The notes beneath the pieces are model-generated. The model did no database searches. It saw only the letters and a list, made by a program, of their open reading frames with translations, and was not told where the DNA came from. A DNA stretch of 64,000 bases from Bacteroides cellulosilyticus (GTDB taxonomy: Bacteria; Bacteroidota; Bacteroidia; Bacteroidales; Bacteroidaceae). This document shows positions 12,164 through 27,025 of the stretch, piece after piece. Each line of letters opens with the position of its first letter. Positions within the stretch are counted from its first letter, which is position 1. The DNA is taken from NCBI RefSeq assembly GCF_020091405.1, contig NZ_CP081903.1, positions 2,604,501 to 2,668,500 of the forward strand, written 5' to 3'. Position numbers and translations under genes: made by a program.

Positions 12164-13426
12164 TTATTTCGTCTGCTTAAACATCCCTTTCCTCTGCTTG
12201 GGCGGTAGCTTAAAGTACTGCCTCAGAAAAAGTTTATGTTTATATACGGTTGTTGCCACTTCCATTATCTGATCCCGTAATTTCAGGATAGGTTCCCGGT
12301 ATCTCTCCGGTGCGGTGCGGATGCTATTGATCGCACTGTCTGCCCGGTTTATCAATTCCTCGGGGACATCTACCATCGCCTGAATTTCTGCATCCGGTTT
12401 CAGGGGCTCAAATGCCTTATTCCGGTAACGGACGAATTCATTGATGGCATCCGTAGCTTTTCCCTGTAAATCCATTGCCATATTGTAAGCATTCAGAATC
12501 TTCTGGTAACCGGCTATGCGGATGTTGTTACTCGTAAGTTCCAGCATATAATAAACCAAGTCATTGCTCCGCCCGTTCGATAACATGCGCTGTCTGGCAC
12601 TTGCCAGTCTTTCCAGTGTATCCTGCCTTGCATATAGAGCCAATGTATCCGCCCAATAGAATACCGGTACGGAGCGTTGTTCATCCACAACTCCTGTATC
12701 AAACTCTTCATAGCTCAGTGGACGTTCGCGGAACTGGAACATCGGATCGAAAGGCATGTGTGTTTTCAGCAATGTATCCGGCAACAGCTTGCAGAAACGA
12801 TGATTCGGGGAAGGAATGAACTGGTAGTTTTCCACAAATCCTGCGCCCCATGTAGGGTCGAACATATACCATTTTCCATTTACTTTGGCTGCGCACCATT
12901 CGTGTGGGTCGGGCAATAAGGCACCGTCCCTGCGGTTATAGCCATTAATAACATAAGCGTCCATTCCCGCTTCCTTCGCCAGCGCTTTAAAAAGCAATGC
13001 GTAATCCTGACAGATACCTTTGCGTTCGGACAGTATCTTTTGTATTTCTTTCGTTTCGTTTGCTTCCTCGCTGCGCGAGGTATAAGTTATGTACACATTG
13101 TATTTAATATTTCTTGAAACCCAGGTATAGATGGCGCGTGCCAGTTGGTCGTCTGTGCTGAGATGCTGTTTCAGGTAAGCTACAAGAGAAGAAACGCTCC
13201 TTCCGGCAGCTTCGGGTGCTGCAAGTGCCACGGAATCGGGAAATGTAAGGCGTTCAGGCATTATACTGTCAGGGGATGCTTTTGATACGGCTGAAGTTGA
13301 AAAAGCCTTATCCTGCGCGGCGACATTACGCCATGCAGAAGACAATTTGCAGAAAGGAAAAAAGAGGCAGAGGGCGAATAGCCATACCGTGAGCCTGTTT
13401 GTTGATTGCCGGAACATACTTGTCAT
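12164..13426 (-). CDS. Secreted transglutaminase-like superfamily protein
   Basis: A 420-residue exported protein; the hydrophobic segment at about 10-28 is a signal peptide or anchor. The transglutaminase-core fold is marked by the catalytic triad: Cys139 (KGICQDYA), His175 (PDPHEWCA) and Asp190 (YMFDPTWG), preceded by ARAIYTWVSRNIKYN typical of these domains. The C-terminal 200 residues are helical and basic, with no recognised domain. In bacteria such proteins are often cysteine peptidases or have unknown roles rather than being crosslinkers. Met4 (MFRQ) is an alternative start. It faces the hybrid kinase gene tail to tail and is not in an obvious operon. Confidence 0.85.
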   Translation of the reverse strand: MTSMFRQSTNRLTVWLFALCLFFPFCKLSSAWRNVAAQDKAFSTSAVSKASPDSIMPERLTFPDSVALAAPEAAGRSVSSLVAYLKQHLSTDDQLARAIYTWVSRNIKYNVYITYTSRSEEANETKEIQKILSERKGICQDYALLFKALAKEAGMDAYVINGYNRRDGALLPDPHEWCAAKVNGKWYMFDPTWGAGFVENYQFIPSPNHRFCKLLPDTLLKTHMPFDPMFQFRERPLSYEEFDTGVVDEQRSVPVFYWADTLALYARQDTLERLASARQRMLSNGRSNDLVYYMLELTSNNIRIAGYQKILNAYNMAMDLQGKATDAINEFVRYRNKAFEPLKPDAEIQAMVDVPEELINRADSAINSIRTAPERYREPILKLRDQIMEVATTVYKHKLFLRQYFKLPPKQRKGMFKQTK

Positions 13427-22359: not shown

Positions 22360-24021
22360 TTAAAGTTGTATAGTTGCTTCGCAAGCCTCGGCTACTGCCG
22401 GATGGTGTGTGATGAAGATGAATGTTTTGCCTGTGCAGTTTCTGCGCAGGCTTTCTATTAATAGTCGTTCCGTTTCGGGATCGAGGGCGGAAGTGGCTTC
22501 GTCCAGCAGCAGGATGTGTCCGGGACGGAGGAGGGCGCGGGCGATGGCGATACGCTGGGCTTGTCCTTCGCTGAGGCCGCCACCTTGTTCGTTGAGGTTA
22601 GTATCTATTCCGTCCGGTAAAGAGAGAACGAAGTCGGCACAGGCGGTATGGAGAGCCTGGAGCATTTCGGCTTCGGTGGCATGAGGATTGCCCATTAATA
22701 GGTTGTCGCGAATGGTACCGCTGAAAAGAGTGTTTCCTTGGGGGACATAGACGAAGTTGGAACGGGTTTGAGGGGAAACTTCAAGAGTTGAGGACTGAGA
22801 ATTGAAAGTTGAGGGTAGGGACTGTGTTGTATTTGCGGATGAAAGGGTGATACTTCCTGCTTGCGGGTCAGCGAGTGCGAGAAGCAACCGGATCAGGGTC
22901 GTTTTTCCAGCACCGGTTTCACCCAATACGGCAGTGCAGCTTCCGGCGGGGAAGTTGCAGGAGAAGTGATTTAATATAGGTCGGTCTCCTGTTGAATAAC
23001 TGAATGTGACATCCTTTAATTGTAAGTCCGGGGTTTGGGGGAACAGTTGCGCTGTTCCGCTTGCTTCGGAGGGAAGTTCTTCAAGTTCCATCAGTCGCTC
23101 TACGGCGGTGAGGGCATTGATAAAGGAAGGCAGCAGGCGTGAAAGATCAAGGGCAGGTCGTTGCACTTTTCCTACCAGTTGCAGGAAGGCGGTCATTGTT
23201 CCGAAGGTGATACTCCCTGTGCTAAGGCGTACTGCCCCCCAAAGAAATGCTGTAAGATAGCCGCCGGAGAACGCAAATGCCACCAGCATACGTGCAGAGA
23301 GTGAAAAGCGGGTACGACCGAATATCTGACTACGGAGTGCATCTTGCAGATCATCCAGTTTTCCGATATGCCGGTCGCTTTGTTCCAGGGTTTTGATGAC
23401 GGTTCGGTGTTGCAGGCTTTCTTGTATAACGGACTGGATACGGCTGTCGCTCTGCCGGATTTCACGGGTGTAGCGGCGCATTCGTTTCATATAGAAGCGG
23501 CTACCCAATAGGAAAATAGGTAGAATGCCTACCACCACCCAAGGCAGGGACGGATCGAGAAAGCAGAAGAATACGAATGCGGCTACCAACTGAACGATGG
23601 TAACTATGAAAGCCGGAGTTGTACTGGTCAGTAACCCCACGATAGCGGCGGTATCTTGTTCCACCCGGTTTACGATATCGCCGGTGTGGAAGCGTTCCAA
23701 TTCGTTCCAACGGCTTTGTAATAGACGGGAGAATAGGCGGTGGCGCAGTGCGTTTCCTGTTTCCACTTGCATACGGGCACTGAGCCAGGTGTCGACGGCT
23801 CCGCACAGAAGTTGGGCGATTAACAAAGCAATAGTAAGGATAGCGGCATTGGTCAGGCTTCCGATGGCGGCACCTGTGGCAATGTCGATGACGACCTTGG
23901 AAGCATAAATAAAGGCAAGAGAAACCGCTACCCCAATGATACCTGTGAGGCAGGAGAGGAGAATACGTCCCCGTTGTCCGTGAGATACTTCCCAGATGTA
24001 CTTTATTTGTTCTGTCTTCAT
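22360..24021 (-). CDS. ABC exporter, fused permease and ATPase
   Basis: A 553-residue half-transporter. The N-terminal region has six membrane helices (about 20-310). The C-terminal ATPase has Walker A GETGAGKTT, signature LSEGQAQR, Walker B ILLLDEATSALD and the switch His in FITHHPAVAE. It lacks an N-terminal C39 peptidase domain, so leader removal, if any, must be done by another protein. It is the last gene of a five-gene operon with a kinase-like protein, an S24/S26 peptidase, a PqqD-like protein and a nucleotidyltransferase. This suggests it exports the operon's product, or confers immunity to it. The segment at about 405-430 (SSANTTQSLPSTFNSQSSTLEVSP) is a Ser/Thr-rich low-complexity insert before the Q-loop. 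Confidence 0.92.
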   Translation of the reverse strand: MKTEQIKYIWEVSHGQRGRILLSCLTGIIGVAVSLAFIYASKVVIDIATGAAIGSLTNAAILTIALLIAQLLCGAVDTWLSARMQVETGNALRHRLFSRLLQSRWNELERFHTGDIVNRVEQDTAAIVGLLTSTTPAFIVTIVQLVAAFVFFCFLDPSLPWVVVGILPIFLLGSRFYMKRMRRYTREIRQSDSRIQSVIQESLQHRTVIKTLEQSDRHIGKLDDLQDALRSQIFGRTRFSLSARMLVAFAFSGGYLTAFLWGAVRLSTGSITFGTMTAFLQLVGKVQRPALDLSRLLPSFINALTAVERLMELEELPSEASGTAQLFPQTPDLQLKDVTFSYSTGDRPILNHFSCNFPAGSCTAVLGETGAGKTTLIRLLLALADPQAGSITLSSANTTQSLPSTFNSQSSTLEVSPQTRSNFVYVPQGNTLFSGTIRDNLLMGNPHATEAEMLQALHTACADFVLSLPDGIDTNLNEQGGGLSEGQAQRIAIARALLRPGHILLLDEATSALDPETERLLIESLRRNCTGKTFIFITHHPAVAEACEATIQL

Positions 24022-24030
24022 AATGAATTA

Positions 24031-24104
24031 GTTACGAGCTACGAGTGGCTGGCGCTATCATGCTGCATAGCACTCGTAGCTTGTAGCTTTGTAGCTCGTA
24101 GCTT
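24031..24104. repeat. GCTACGAG hairpin repeat, copy 1
   Basis: The left arm (TTACGAGCTACGAGTGG) and the right arm (CACTCGTAGCTTGTAGC, followed by further words) are reverse complements around a loop containing CGCTATCATGC. It overlaps the 3' end of the NTP_transf_5 gene, supplying its last codons and stop. Confidence 0.85.
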
Positions 24105-25199
24105 ATTTATTTGTATTGTTACTGTTCCCTTTATCAGCGTCACCGGATACCATAACGCCTCATTGGGAGCAAACTTTCGCAGCTTCATGCAGCGTTTGGT
24201 TGCCCGGCAGAAAGTGTGCCATTTTCCGGCCCAATAACCTTTGGGACGTGGCTTGATGCGTGCGTCATGCTGACCGAAGTTTCCGGTAGCAAAGATATCA
24301 TCCAGTAAGATTTCTCCTGCCCGTTCCATACCTTTGACAGAGAAGGGCAGGTTGTCTTCCGGCAAACCCAGATAATGCACGGCGATATATCCGAAAGCTT
24401 TTGCGGCACGTAGCAATCCTACTTTGCGGAAATATTTTTCCAGCAAAAGTTTGTCAATATCTTCATGACGTGTTGCCAACAGACGGGTCCAGTCGCAAAC
24501 TTGGCGAAGGCCGATGCCGCTGTTCAGGAAATGGACGAATGCATGCATGAAGATATACAGCGCATTGAATGTTACAGGCGGGAGGCTGACGGGATATTCG
24601 TGTATCTCTCTTGTTTCAGCATGCTGTGGGTACCATTCCTGTATCAGACGCTGGAAGTACCGGTTACCTGCCGGATTGTTAATCCGCAGAATGATACGAT
24701 GGTTTTCTATATGAACGCCATGAAATGAATAGCTGGCGTGTTTGTCCGATGCTTCTCCTTCTGCCTCTGCACCGTGACGGAGCAGAATATTGTTGGCTAC
24801 GGGCTGTCCTTCCTTTCCGATATAGACGTCGATGTCGCCACATTGACGGTGCAATGGGTTTATGTAGTGAGTGGCGATGCCTTGTCCTTTCAGTAGAATA
24901 GGGTGTAGACCGGCTTCCCGGTATGGCATAAAAACTTCCGGGAGTTCTTCATTCAGGCGGAGGTTAGACTGCTCGATTTGTGCCACTTTAGCTGCCCATT
25001 GCAGATAGAGCGGTCGGGGTGGGCGCAGTTCTGCCGGCAGACTGAGCACTCCGTCGAAGGTAATGGCGAGAAGGGCTTGGGTACGTGCCAGCTGGTATAT
25101 TTCTTCCCAGTCGGCAGTGTTCATGCTACTGAACGGGGTTGGGTCGACGGGGGTGTTCCATAATCCGGAACGCACCAAGGTTAGGAAAGTACGACGCAT
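24039..25199 (-). CDS. Nucleotidyltransferase family protein (NTP_transf_5-like)
   Basis: A 386-residue protein. The family hallmark is at about 115-145: LLKGQGIATHYINPLHRQCGDIDVYI, where the Gly-Asp-Ile-Asp pair is the metal-binding motif of the DNA polymerase beta-type fold. Proteins of this family occur in lasso-peptide and related peptide clusters as tailoring enzymes, though most members are uncharacterised. The start is 3 bases from the PqqD-like stop. The last 20 or so residues (RATKLQATSAMQHDSASHS) are encoded by a dispersed GCTACGAG hairpin repeat and are not expected to be part of the ancestral fold. Confidence 0.82.
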   Translation of the reverse strand: MRRTFLTLVRSGLWNTPVDPTPFSSMNTADWEEIYQLARTQALLAITFDGVLSLPAELRPPRPLYLQWAAKVAQIEQSNLRLNEELPEVFMPYREAGLHPILLKGQGIATHYINPLHRQCGDIDVYIGKEGQPVANNILLRHGAEAEGEASDKHASYSFHGVHIENHRIILRINNPAGNRYFQRLIQEWYPQHAETREIHEYPVSLPPVTFNALYIFMHAFVHFLNSGIGLRQVCDWTRLLATRHEDIDKLLLEKYFRKVGLLRAAKAFGYIAVHYLGLPEDNLPFSVKGMERAGEILLDDIFATGNFGQHDARIKPRPKGYWAGKWHTFCRATKRCMKLRKFAPNEALWYPVTLIKGTVTIQINKLRATKLQATSAMQHDSASHS

Positions 25200-25202
25200 A
25201 TG

Positions 25203-25469
25203 CTATTCTATGATTCCGGCTTCCAGCCAGTTCTTTATCAGTTGTTCTGCATCCCGCTTTGCGGTTTCAGCGTCTACTTCGTAGTTCTCCGTAAGGAAAT
25301 CGGTAAGGGTGTCGGTATTGAAATCTGTTCCTTCCACATGTTGCCAAAGGCAGGTTGCCGTAGGGTTCAGGCTGATGATATTGCTGAAATCTACGTTTCC
25401 TGTGCCGTTGTGCATGATGATATGTTCGTCACCAATCTGATGTAAGGTAAATCCGTTCTTAATTTTCAT
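25203..25469 (-). CDS. PqqD-like peptide-recognition protein
   Basis: An 88-residue protein matching the PqqD/RRE fold: an N-terminal beta hairpin region (MKIKNGFTLHQIGDEHIIM), a short strand with DFSNIISLNPTATCLW (the typical LNxTAxxLW pattern), then helices ending in AEQLIKNWLEAGIIE. PqqD-like domains bind the leader of ribosomally made peptides and present them to modifying enzymes. A free-standing copy of this size corresponds to a B1 protein in lasso-peptide systems. It is sandwiched between an S24/S26 peptidase (12-base gap) and an NTP_transf_5 gene (3-base gap), supporting a peptide-modification role. The partner peptide was not found. Confidence 0.85.
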   Translation of the reverse strand: MKIKNGFTLHQIGDEHIIMHNGTGNVDFSNIISLNPTATCLWQHVEGTDFNTDTLTDFLTENYEVDAETAKRDAEQLIKNWLEAGIIE

Positions 25470-25481
25470 TGTTTGTATGTA

Positions 25482-25952
25482 TTAGGTTGTTATTATTCTG
25501 CTTCTTCTGAATATTGCCAGTAGCCATCGCCTTACAGGGGTCAGTTTCATCCACCAGAAAGAATAGCGCTGCCAGACACGGCCATTGCACGGATATTCTT
25601 TTTCTTTGCGGATGGCGGCAACCATTACTCCCATGACATTGGCTATGTTGGTCTGTTCGGTTATTCGTATATTACCGTCTCCCAGTAGTGTTAGTTCTTG
25701 GCCGTTGCGGTGGATGATGCGGTGGAAGATAATACGTCCGTTCGTATCTCTGGCAAGTACGGCAACGCCCGGTTGTAAATCATCATCGGTAAAAGGACCT
25801 AAAATAATGCGGTCGCGACGGTCTACAAGAAACGGGTTCATACTGTTTCCTCTGACTGTCAGGGTTACGGTATGTCCTTCGCTGATGAGGCGTGCTACTT
25901 CGGGTAACAGTACCTCGTTCGGGATGATTCTTTTTCGTCCGTTATCTATCAT
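25482..25952 (-). CDS. S24/S26-family serine peptidase
   Basis: A 156-residue protein with a signal-peptidase/LexA-like core. Ser37 in VRGNSMNPFL is the nucleophile. His77 in FHRII sits where eukaryotic and archaeal-type signal peptidases have a catalytic His in place of Lys. LGDGN (about 92-96) matches the conserved GDN box. The C-terminus (about 125-156) is basic and aromatic (WWMKLTPVRRWLLAIFRR) and may sit at the membrane. There is no N-terminal membrane anchor. Within the operon it is the natural candidate for leader cleavage. An alternative is a domesticated regulator protease, but no DNA-binding domain is present. Confidence 0.8.
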   Translation of the reverse strand: MIDNGRKRIIPNEVLLPEVARLISEGHTVTLTVRGNSMNPFLVDRRDRIILGPFTDDDLQPGVAVLARDTNGRIIFHRIIHRNGQELTLLGDGNIRITEQTNIANVMGVMVAAIRKEKEYPCNGRVWQRYSFWWMKLTPVRRWLLAIFRRSRIITT

Positions 25953-25972
25953 GATGTTGATTTAGCTACGAG

Positions 25973-26060
25973 CTATAAGCTACATGCTACGAGTTACAAG
26001 CTACGAGTGGCTGCGCTATGAACCGAAAGGCACTCGTAGCTCGTAGCTCTTGTAGCTTGT
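25973..26060. repeat. GCTACGAG hairpin repeat, copy 2
   Basis: Iterated words (GCTACGAG, CTATAAG, CTACATG, CTACGAG, TTACAAG, CTACGAG) are followed by a loop with CGCTATGAACCG and the reversed words (CACTCGTAGC, TCGTAGC, CTTGTAGC). It overlaps the 3' end of the HPr-kinase-like gene. Confidence 0.85.
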
Positions 26061-26968
26061 TTAAAACAAATCTCCGCCGCCTCCCTGTCCGGCAAGCATT
26101 TCAGAAAATACACCGGAGTATGGGCCGCAAGATATTTCACTGTCTCGATGACACCATTATTCAATTCTCTCACTTCCTTCAGATTAGAGCACGACGGCAA
26201 TAGTGATGCGAAGGCCCGTGCCGGACTCTCCCGTTGAATCTCATTCATCGGAGCCTGTTCCAATCGTACAAATGCCCCTACAGGAACAGAATCATTCTTG
26301 TAGCAGGGTGTCTTTCCGCTCCAGGGCGAACCGTAGACTGTGGCTTCCCCTGTTTCCCGGTTGAAATGCACGATGGGATTATCATCGTTCAGCAGTTCAC
26401 AGCCTGGGATATGCTTCAGCCACAACCCGCTGTGCGTACTTTTTCCTGTTCCGCTTTTGCCTTGGAAGAGATATCCCTTTCCATCTTTCTTTATGACGGA
26501 AGCGTGCATTAATACAGTATCGGAACAAGCCGTATTGAAAGCATAAATCATCATCAGGATATTGTTGAGTACAAATGCATCCGCTTCTGTTTCGTGCAGG
26601 AACAGGACACCTTTGGTAAATCCGTAGAAGAAATAAGCTGTGTACTCTTTCGGATCGTTGGGAGCGAGGATGGTAATGAGATAAGAGTCCGTATCCGGAA
26701 TCACACTGATCCTGCATGTGGCACCTTCCCATTCGAACTCGACGAGTGAGCGATATTTTACATGGTCTTCTTCTTGGATTTCACTCTCCGGCTGGACGGC
26801 AAGTGAGAATGCTATTTTAAGTTCTTTCTCTTTGTATGTATCTAAAGATAACAGGAAAGGTTTCAGGGAGGGAATCAGCTCTTCCGTTTTCCAGTGTGGA
26901 ATGGTGGAGGAAGTACCGAATAGATAAGGCCCTACTTGATATACCTGTGCGTTACGCTCTCCTTTCAT
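25994..26968 (-). CDS. HPr-kinase/PEP-carboxykinase-like protein
   Basis: A 324-residue protein. A P-loop (GKSGTGKST, about 170-178) in the HprK/PEPCK-type context is followed by ELLNDDNPIVHF (metal-binding Asp pair) and GSPWSGKTPCY, all typical of HPr-kinase-like proteins. The N-terminal 150 residues are not the HprK N-domain, and no HPr is nearby, so it is unlikely to be true HprK. Related proteins phosphorylate peptide natural products, for example the lasso peptide paeninodin. It is the first gene of the five-gene operon, with a promoter match at 26995-27025. Its last 20 residues come from a dispersed repeat, and its stop codon TAA lies within that repeat. Confidence 0.82.
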   Translation of the reverse strand: MKGERNAQVYQVGPYLFGTSSTIPHWKTEELIPSLKPFLLSLDTYKEKELKIAFSLAVQPESEIQEEDHVKYRSLVEFEWEGATCRISVIPDTDSYLITILAPNDPKEYTAYFFYGFTKGVLFLHETEADAFVLNNILMMIYAFNTACSDTVLMHASVIKKDGKGYLFQGKSGTGKSTHSGLWLKHIPGCELLNDDNPIVHFNRETGEATVYGSPWSGKTPCYKNDSVPVGAFVRLEQAPMNEIQRESPARAFASLLPSCSNLKEVRELNNGVIETVKYLAAHTPVYFLKCLPDREAAEICFKQATRATSYECLSVHSAATRSL

Positions 26969-26994: not shown

Positions 26995-27025
26995 TAAAGG
27001 TAGAGGAATTCTTCTGATTGGACAA
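26995..27025 (-). promoter_or_regulatory. Promoter of the kinase-peptidase-PqqD operon
   Basis: On the minus strand, GTTG (TTG at 27023-27025) and TACCTTTA (26995-27002) are separated by 20 bases. This fits the Bacteroides -33/-7 arrangement apart from the final base of the -7 box. It shows that the operon can start independently of the DUF3943 gene upstream. Confidence 0.5.

Follow-up and report, generated by a model that had tools for sequence, protein, structure and literature searches.

Here we report the analysis of a five-gene operon encoded within a 64,000-nucleotide stretch of the Bacteroides cellulosilyticus genome (hereafter, the window), which comprises genes for an HprK-like kinase, an S24/S26 signal-peptidase-like protein, a free-standing PqqD-family recognition element (RRE) for ribosomally synthesized and post-translationally modified peptides (RiPPs), an NTP_transf_5 nucleotidyltransferase, and an ATP-binding cassette (ABC) exporter. 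We consider it highly probable that this operon is a stand-alone RiPP machine of the linear polyphosphorylated peptide (LPP) type, acting in trans on precursors whose genes lie at other sites of the genome. Popov and coworkers defined the LPP family (Nature Communications, 20 May 2026; PMC13381572) with the lpp cluster of Paenibacillus alginolyticus as its model, and its gene set consists of a SpI-like/SipW-like leader peptidase, a discrete RRE, an HprK-like kinase, a nucleoside triphosphate (NTP) transferase, and an MsbA-like exporter. An earlier sequence-only reading of the window had proposed a RiPP tailoring and export set akin to paeninodin-type lasso peptide tailoring, in which the S24/S26 enzyme might serve as the leader protease. 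Both proposals stand as the best reading: the gene set equals that of LPP, and by analogy with LppS, which has this role in LPP, the window peptidase is the putative leader protease.

The five genes lie on one strand in the order already read from the sequence, and the list of open reading frames (ORFs) of the window gives intergenic gaps of 41, 12, 3, and 17 bases from the kinase to the exporter gene (Table 1). The PqqD, NTP_transf_5, ABC_membrane, and ABC_tran domains scored above their Pfam cut-offs, and the Pfam scan listed no C39 family for the exporter, as had been claimed. All matches of the kinase are below curated cut-offs and show distant likeness to SynChlorMet ScmC (TIGR04249; E 4.1e-6, 26.4 bits against a cut-off of 125) and HprK_rel_A (TIGR04352; E 1.3e-5, 24.5 bits against a cut-off of 200), followed by Hpr_kinase_C (E 0.036); those of the peptidase, Peptidase_S24 (PF00717; E 6.2e-4) and sigpep_I_arch (E 0.0037), are also below cut-off. 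Despite these scores, both names are backed by the conservation of the likely catalytic residues among relatives in the examined stretches, where kinase residues H155, K176, and D196 are each kept in 47 of 48 sequences, and the previously noticed peptidase residues Ser37 and His77 are invariant together with Asp92 (32/32). Asp92 likely rounds out a Ser-His-Asp catalytic set. In profile searches, the peptidase matched SEC11C (E 0.0022) and SEC11A (E 0.056) about as weakly as bacterial signal peptidases (E 0.0055 and 0.012), so its Ser-His type is drawn from the residues and not from the score. The window is part of one contig of 6.94 Mb, and its PqqD is 99% identical to that of Bacteroides cellulosilyticus DSM 14838 (L004). 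In agreement with the sequence-only reading, neither an asparagine-synthetase family cyclase nor a B2-sized transglutaminase protease was found among 11 flanking proteins scanned (12164-38334), the rest of the genome not having been searched. A transglutaminase-like protein (12164-13426; PF01841, E 5.1e-15) is located 9 kb from the operon and is unlikely to be a lasso B2 protein because its 420 aa are long for that type.

The gene set recurs well beyond the window. We compared 64 stretches, namely 60 around NTP_transf_5 or PqqD loci, the window, and three named loci; they had been chosen for an NTP_transf_5, PqqD, or precursor match, many of them for the closeness of NTP_transf_5 to PqqD or a precursor, and two places occur twice among them (L004/L152 and L005/L154). 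All five gene families are found together in 27 of these stretches, in several orders, with the window's order in 10, and the flanking genes vary between loci. Since the set is kept while its flanks differ, the five genes are a recurring unit and no chance grouping in this window. Across a family sample of 201 genomes, NTP_transf_5 was detected in 144 and PqqD in 180, and a phylum-wide search located the peptidase in at least 16 of 395 genomes and at least 8 of 170 genera, which are lower bounds as at most nine candidates per genome were scored.

Candidate precursors were identified outside the window. Among its 892 ORFs of at least 20 aa, the best match to the precursor profiles reached only E 3.1, in line with the earlier remark that no precursor is visible near the operon; six window ORFs at 17-33 kb satisfy a permissive YxxP/WxxP pattern, probably by chance. 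A scan of short ORFs for an N-terminal [Y/W/F]xxP near the loci, with chance matches dropped by eye, gave 18 small proteins that were aligned with Tyr and Pro invariant (profile A1). A stringent nucleotide search of the genome for proteins beginning with MKKxYxxP found nothing; the protein profile did find candidates, and thus the search for short ORFs with a shared leader motif elsewhere in the genome, which the sequence-only reading had suggested, yielded four dispersed YxxP genes, whose products are three different proteins of 73-76 aa. Their scores in the first profile search were only E 0.04 to 0.8, and they form one family because they have a common C-terminal block that is absent from that profile. 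Each combines a YxxP leader within a shared N-terminal block, a Gly/Ser-rich middle, and a conserved C-terminal LExLIxDILTI, and none of the three proteins matched Pfam or NCBIfam at E 1.

According to the main text of PMC13381572, LPP precursors are proteins of 35-200 aa with an N-terminal YxxP leader and a variable C-terminus, the leader consensus is YxxPxVLxHQxIxFET with cleavage after T, and LppK phosphorylates core Ser3, adding multiple phosphates. In the precursors collected here, a hydrophobic residue is present at Y+5 in 25 of 30 alignment rows counted by hand, and a Ser occupies Y+18 to Y+20 in 38 of 45, mostly Y+19 or Y+20. The three proteins of this genome have it at Y+19, Y+20, or Y+22, the last in a protein with a three-residue insertion. 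Because these positions are near Y+18 of LPP, the conserved Ser is by analogy the expected phosphorylated residue. A wider search gave 288 matches of the precursor type at E <=0.001, which mark a family of small hypothetical proteins; the few organism names shown were Bacteroides, and none of the 120 proteins listed has a Pfam domain. Such proteins are likely modified peptides, which genome mining for precursors next to their enzymes could miss.

The PqqD protein has the features expected of a leader-binding element. The sequence-only reading had called for a structure prediction of its peptide-binding groove, and the resulting model does not refute the proposal, as it displays a predicted RRE fold with equivalents of the two LppB residues that hold the Tyr and Pro of YxxP. 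Neither 9x8z (LppB) nor 9x90 (PbaB1) is among the 50 structures listed, from a library that ends on 2026-04-08. The leader contacts of LppB include an Asn at the Pro kink and an Asp hydrogen-bonded to the Tyr (PMC13381572); by alignment, N33 and D70 of LppB are equivalent to N35 and D73 of the window PqqD, each kept in 46 of 48 relatives. The only other PqqD-domain protein of this genome (L003, G000:C1:3722515-3722676; 129 aa) was considered as the cognate RRE of the precursors and rejected: it is adjacent to a transporter-like gene, and six same-genus genomes with one PqqD match and no NTP_transf_5 (G002, G055, G074, G091, G107, and G121) have no match to the precursor model A3 described below.

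The candidate precursors mostly occur together with the operon. In a genus sample of 119 genomes, a model built from the proteins of this genome alone (A2; threshold E 0.1) matched 33 genomes, all within the 63 that have NTP_transf_5 and none of the 56 that lack it (Fisher p 3e-12). Eight of the 33 matches are strong (E <=1e-15) and the others range from 4e-7 to 0.07, the chance rate being bounded because the 56 genomes without NTP_transf_5 yielded zero. The peptidase was found in 58 genus genomes, including 32 of the 33 with an A2 match. A wider model built from 30 precursors (A3; threshold E 0.05 in the genus sample) matched 54 genomes, 49 of them with the peptidase (36/41 when the 13 genomes that donated rows are excluded). 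In the family sample, a weaker test than the genus one, NTP_transf_5 is present in 126 of 152 A3-positive genomes. Of the A3 places examined, 35/80 lie on the same contig as a peptidase place, and the two are at most 20 kb apart in 11 genomes. The most direct arrangements are seen in L141, which has the window's gene order with a precursor and a lipoprotein-like gene adjoining, and in L070 and L095, where a 38-aa precursor is followed by a lipoprotein-like gene of ~1100 aa and then by all five genes. For the sequence-only reading, its proposal would have been refuted by a set that is conserved in unrelated surroundings and for which no short ORF exists at all. The neighbors do differ between loci, but the second half of that case fails, since matching ORFs exist in the same genome and, in some relatives, next to the five genes.

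Most precursor genes precede a lipoprotein-like gene. An ORF with a lipobox pattern begins -4 to +143 bases after 39 of 47 unique precursors, compared with 42 of 441 control genes, and two further precursors with a lipoprotein-like next gene were recognized by eye (L117 and L171). In this genome, three of the four precursor genes are directly upstream of a large lipoprotein-like gene, and the fourth (94609-94833) precedes a gene that resembles SusC by the look of its sequence. The N-terminal parts of 19 partner lipoproteins share a faint common pattern, and Pfam assigned Mfa_like_1 (fimbrillin-like) to four of them; nine whole partner lipoproteins contained BspA-type LRR_5 repeats in one case (6.5e-19) and little else, so that "fimbrillin-like" holds for some partners only. 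At L163 (5235-5810) and L170 (5055-5564), putative membrane-tethered helix-turn-helix regulators precede precursor-lipoprotein pairs, and judging from their sequences these small proteins may provide contact- or surface-sensed control of the pairs.

From these data we infer the following mechanism. The PqqD protein would bind the YxxP part of the precursor leader, upon which the HprK-like kinase would add one or more phosphates to the Ser just past the leader. The NTP transferase might then extend the phosphate with another group, for which a hexose is our guess from pseudomycoidin, whose NTP transferase adds one or two hexoses onto the phosphate (PMC8498205). The Ser-His-Asp peptidase would remove the leader as presented by the RRE, as LppS cuts the leader solely in the presence of LppB (PMC13381572), and the ABC exporter would move the product out of the cell. 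More tentatively, one central machine could serve dispersed peptide-lipoprotein pairs, such that phosphorylated, perhaps glycosylated, peptides are exported and work with fimbrillin-like or BspA-like surface lipoproteins; we regard this as a possibility short of being probable. If true, it would give the first biological context for LPP peptides, namely the surface structures of gut Bacteroides, and one RiPP machine would act as a genome-wide surface-modification service.

Several observations weigh against the assignment to the LPP type and against the operon-precursor link. The nearest precursor is located 1.9 Mb from the operon in this genome, and therefore the link rests on co-occurrence and on the arrangement in relatives. 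That Tyr and Pro never vary in profiles A1 and A3 is in part a product of row selection, since most rows had been chosen via a YxxP-type pattern. Many A2 matches are weak: a threshold of E 0.1 for each genome could by itself let through ~12 chance matches in 119, although none arose in the 56 genomes without NTP_transf_5. Kinship between the genomes also means that they do not count as independent samples. Among the 54 A3-positive genus genomes, four have no NTP_transf_5 (G212, at just E 0.02, G293, G297, and G310) and five no peptidase (these four and G296); conversely, no A3 match was obtained in 13 of 63 NTP_transf_5-positive and 9 of 58 peptidase-positive genus genomes. NTP_transf_5 is also missing from 26 of the 152 genomes with an A3 match in the family sample, and at least three of these 26 have no PqqD match either. 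Of the four RREs matched, LppB has the lowest score, and an RRE tree that included LppB, PbaB1, TbiB1, and TfuB1 pieces does not place LppB, whose branch is 6.0 long; this tree has too few columns, long branches, few supported forks, and modest support. The C-terminal half of the leader is without F-E-T here, and HQ and FET of the LPP consensus are not present in the 30-row alignment. Finally, the NTP transferase step is the weakest of the mechanism, because LppN had no visible effect in a heterologous host (PMC13381572).

The points on relatedness bear on the view that the operon and the YxxP proteins co-occur by shared ancestry alone, the leaders serving another recognition protein. Relatedness does inflate the co-occurrence p-values, and the 26 family-sample genomes with an A3 match and no NTP_transf_5 fit such a scenario. 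However, L003, the one other PqqD match of the genome, with its transporter-like neighbor, and the six A3-negative genomes described above speak against this, and the closeness of precursor and peptidase in at least 11 genomes is beyond what ancestry alone explains, so that we find this view quite unlikely. We also consider it unlikely that the operon acts on larger targets such as the lipoproteins themselves, with the small proteins serving as partners or chaperones. The lipoprotein-like genes directly after the small-protein genes agree with that idea, as does the conserved C-terminus of the small proteins of this genome, which is unusual for a released peptide; against it, the RRE-binding motif sits at the N-terminal leader position of the small proteins, and the substrates shown for LppK and LppS are LPP precursors of 35-200 aa (PMC13381572).

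It appears very unlikely that the operon is a paeninodin-type lasso cluster that has decayed or been split, with its cyclase and B2 protease lost or encoded elsewhere. Paeninodin/pseudomycoidin-type clusters likewise contain a kinase, an NTP transferase, a PqqD protein, and an ABC exporter (PMC8498205), the window PqqD matches the NCBIfam lasso chaperone model at 27.2 bits (cut-off 70), and true-looking lasso clusters exist in Bacteroidaceae (L089 and L090). Nevertheless, neither missing enzyme was found among the flanking proteins scanned, and there is no sign of decay, because the peptidase triad is invariant and 27 full sets exist. Precursors at L089 and L090 have WxxP where those described here have YxxP, and the RRE tree, with the modest support and long branches mentioned above, groups both Bacteroidaceae lasso RREs with PbaB1, apart from this set. 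We thus favor an LPP-type machine with precursors in trans over each of these explanations.

Table 1. Features of the operon region (window coordinates) and candidate precursor genes of the same genome (C1 coordinates).
Feature	Coordinates	Strand	Length	Remarks
HprK-like kinase (LppK-like)	25994..26968	(-)	324 aa	P-loop ~residues 170-178, His155, Asp195/196
S24/S26 signal-peptidase-like, putative leader peptidase (LppS-like)	25482..25952	(-)	156 aa	Ser37/His77/Asp92
Free-standing PqqD-family RiPP recognition element (LppB/B1-like)	25203..25469	(-)	88 aa	PF05402 1.5e-15
NTP_transf_5 nucleotidyltransferase (LppN-like)	24039..25199	(-)	386 aa	PF14907 1e-50
ABC exporter, membrane and ATPase domains (LppD/MsbA-like)	22360..24021	(-)	553 aa	PF00664 1e-31, PF00005 4.8e-27
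Putative Bacteroides -7 promoter element TACCTTTA	26995..27002	(-)		Directly upstream of kinase gene; by-eye reading
Palindromic REP-like element, kinase gene 3' end	25958..26058	(-)		Fold z -4.35
Palindromic REP-like element, copy 2, NTP_transf_5 gene 3' end	24018..24118	(-)		Fold z -3.32
Precursor gene 1	C1:94609-94833	minus		Profile search
Precursor gene 2	C1:4571546-4571764			Profile search
Precursor gene 3	C1:5602362-5602589			Profile search
Precursor gene 4	C1:5605841-5606068			Profile search

The putative promoter element upstream of the kinase gene follows TAnnTTTG, which we take to be the consensus of the -7 element. Both REP-like (repetitive extragenic palindrome-like) copies are composed of AGCTACN-like units and overlap the last codons of the kinase and NTP_transf_5 genes, and the kinase of B. 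stercorirosoris (L005) stops without this extension.

Related sets of different composition were observed in other stretches. PqqD, NTP_transf_5, and the kinase occur without the peptidase or exporter in L073, L075-L077, L079, L080, L082, L084-L086, and L093, of which L077, L079, L080, and L093 resemble exopolysaccharide clusters (a sugar transferase and Wza/Wzc-like proteins, by length and sequence look) and have a small YxxP protein past the Wzc-like gene. A precursor match was obtained in 13 of the 16 stretches that contain PqqD, NTP_transf_5, and the kinase and no peptidase, a number that takes in two lasso-like and two other loci. PqqD-kinase-peptidase sets with YxxP proteins of 115-148 aa are present in L083, where four such proteins are clustered, L087, and L088; by sequence look, the latter two adjoin radical-SAM-like genes and an NTP_transf_5 protein with a PqqD-like N-terminus. 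The lasso-like Bacteroidaceae clusters (L089, 7182-9810 and 12870-15612; L090, 6180-12803) hold PqqD, kinase, NTP_transf_5, exporter, and, by sequence look, an Asn-synthetase-like protein together with precursors of the WxxP type, of which that of L090 is PadeA-like at E 0.023, and adjoin tandem tail-collar-like genes. A Eubacterium metagenome-assembled genome (L007) was tried as a Bacillota LPP locus and rejected, its PqqD gene being close to the contig end with no operon visible.

Judged by title and start of abstract, none of the papers listed in the literature searches deals with the five-gene set in Bacteroides. Compared with paeninodin and pseudomycoidin clusters, the operon has the HprK-like kinase, NTP transferase, free-standing PqqD/B1 protein, and ABC exporter in common, and differs in its YxxP leaders and in the cyclase and B2 protease not found nearby. 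The window peptidase shares its Ser-His-Asp residues and weak matches with the archaeal/eukaryotic-type signal peptidases (SEC11, and SipW according to the LPP paper), and differs from them in being encoded with an RRE, a kinase, and an exporter as the presumed cutter of RRE-presented leaders.

The likeness to LPP extends over the same five co-located core genes, small precursors with a YxxP leader and a variable C-terminus (dispersed in this genome, next to the set in certain relatives), the retained RRE residues for Tyr and Pro, the lack of a macrolactam cyclase among the nearby proteins scanned, and the peptidase triad, S29, H68, and D93 in LppS, although the His-Asp spacing is 15 here versus 25 in LppS. 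This comparison uses the gene set and residues. Because the leader diverges from LPP in its C-terminal half, the LPP cleavage site is not transferable. Precursors are dispersed here and mostly followed by lipoprotein-like genes, and the host phylum is Bacteroidota; the discussion of PMC13381572 confines LPP to Bacillota and describes its role as unknown, and its results place the peptidase cluster "predominantly" there, while its main text never uses "bacteroid". The suggestion of a distinct RiPP-like system stands in part: the system is not wholly distinct, because its gene set equals the published one. Its likely substrates are short ORFs at other places in the genome, and it departs from LPP in phylum, layout, and lipoprotein pairing. 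In-trans precursors before lipoprotein genes offer a testable handle on LPP function. By its gene set, predicted triad, YxxP leaders, and RRE residues, the window operon belongs to the LPP kind, and the presence of this gene set in Bacteroides extends the family to another phylum.

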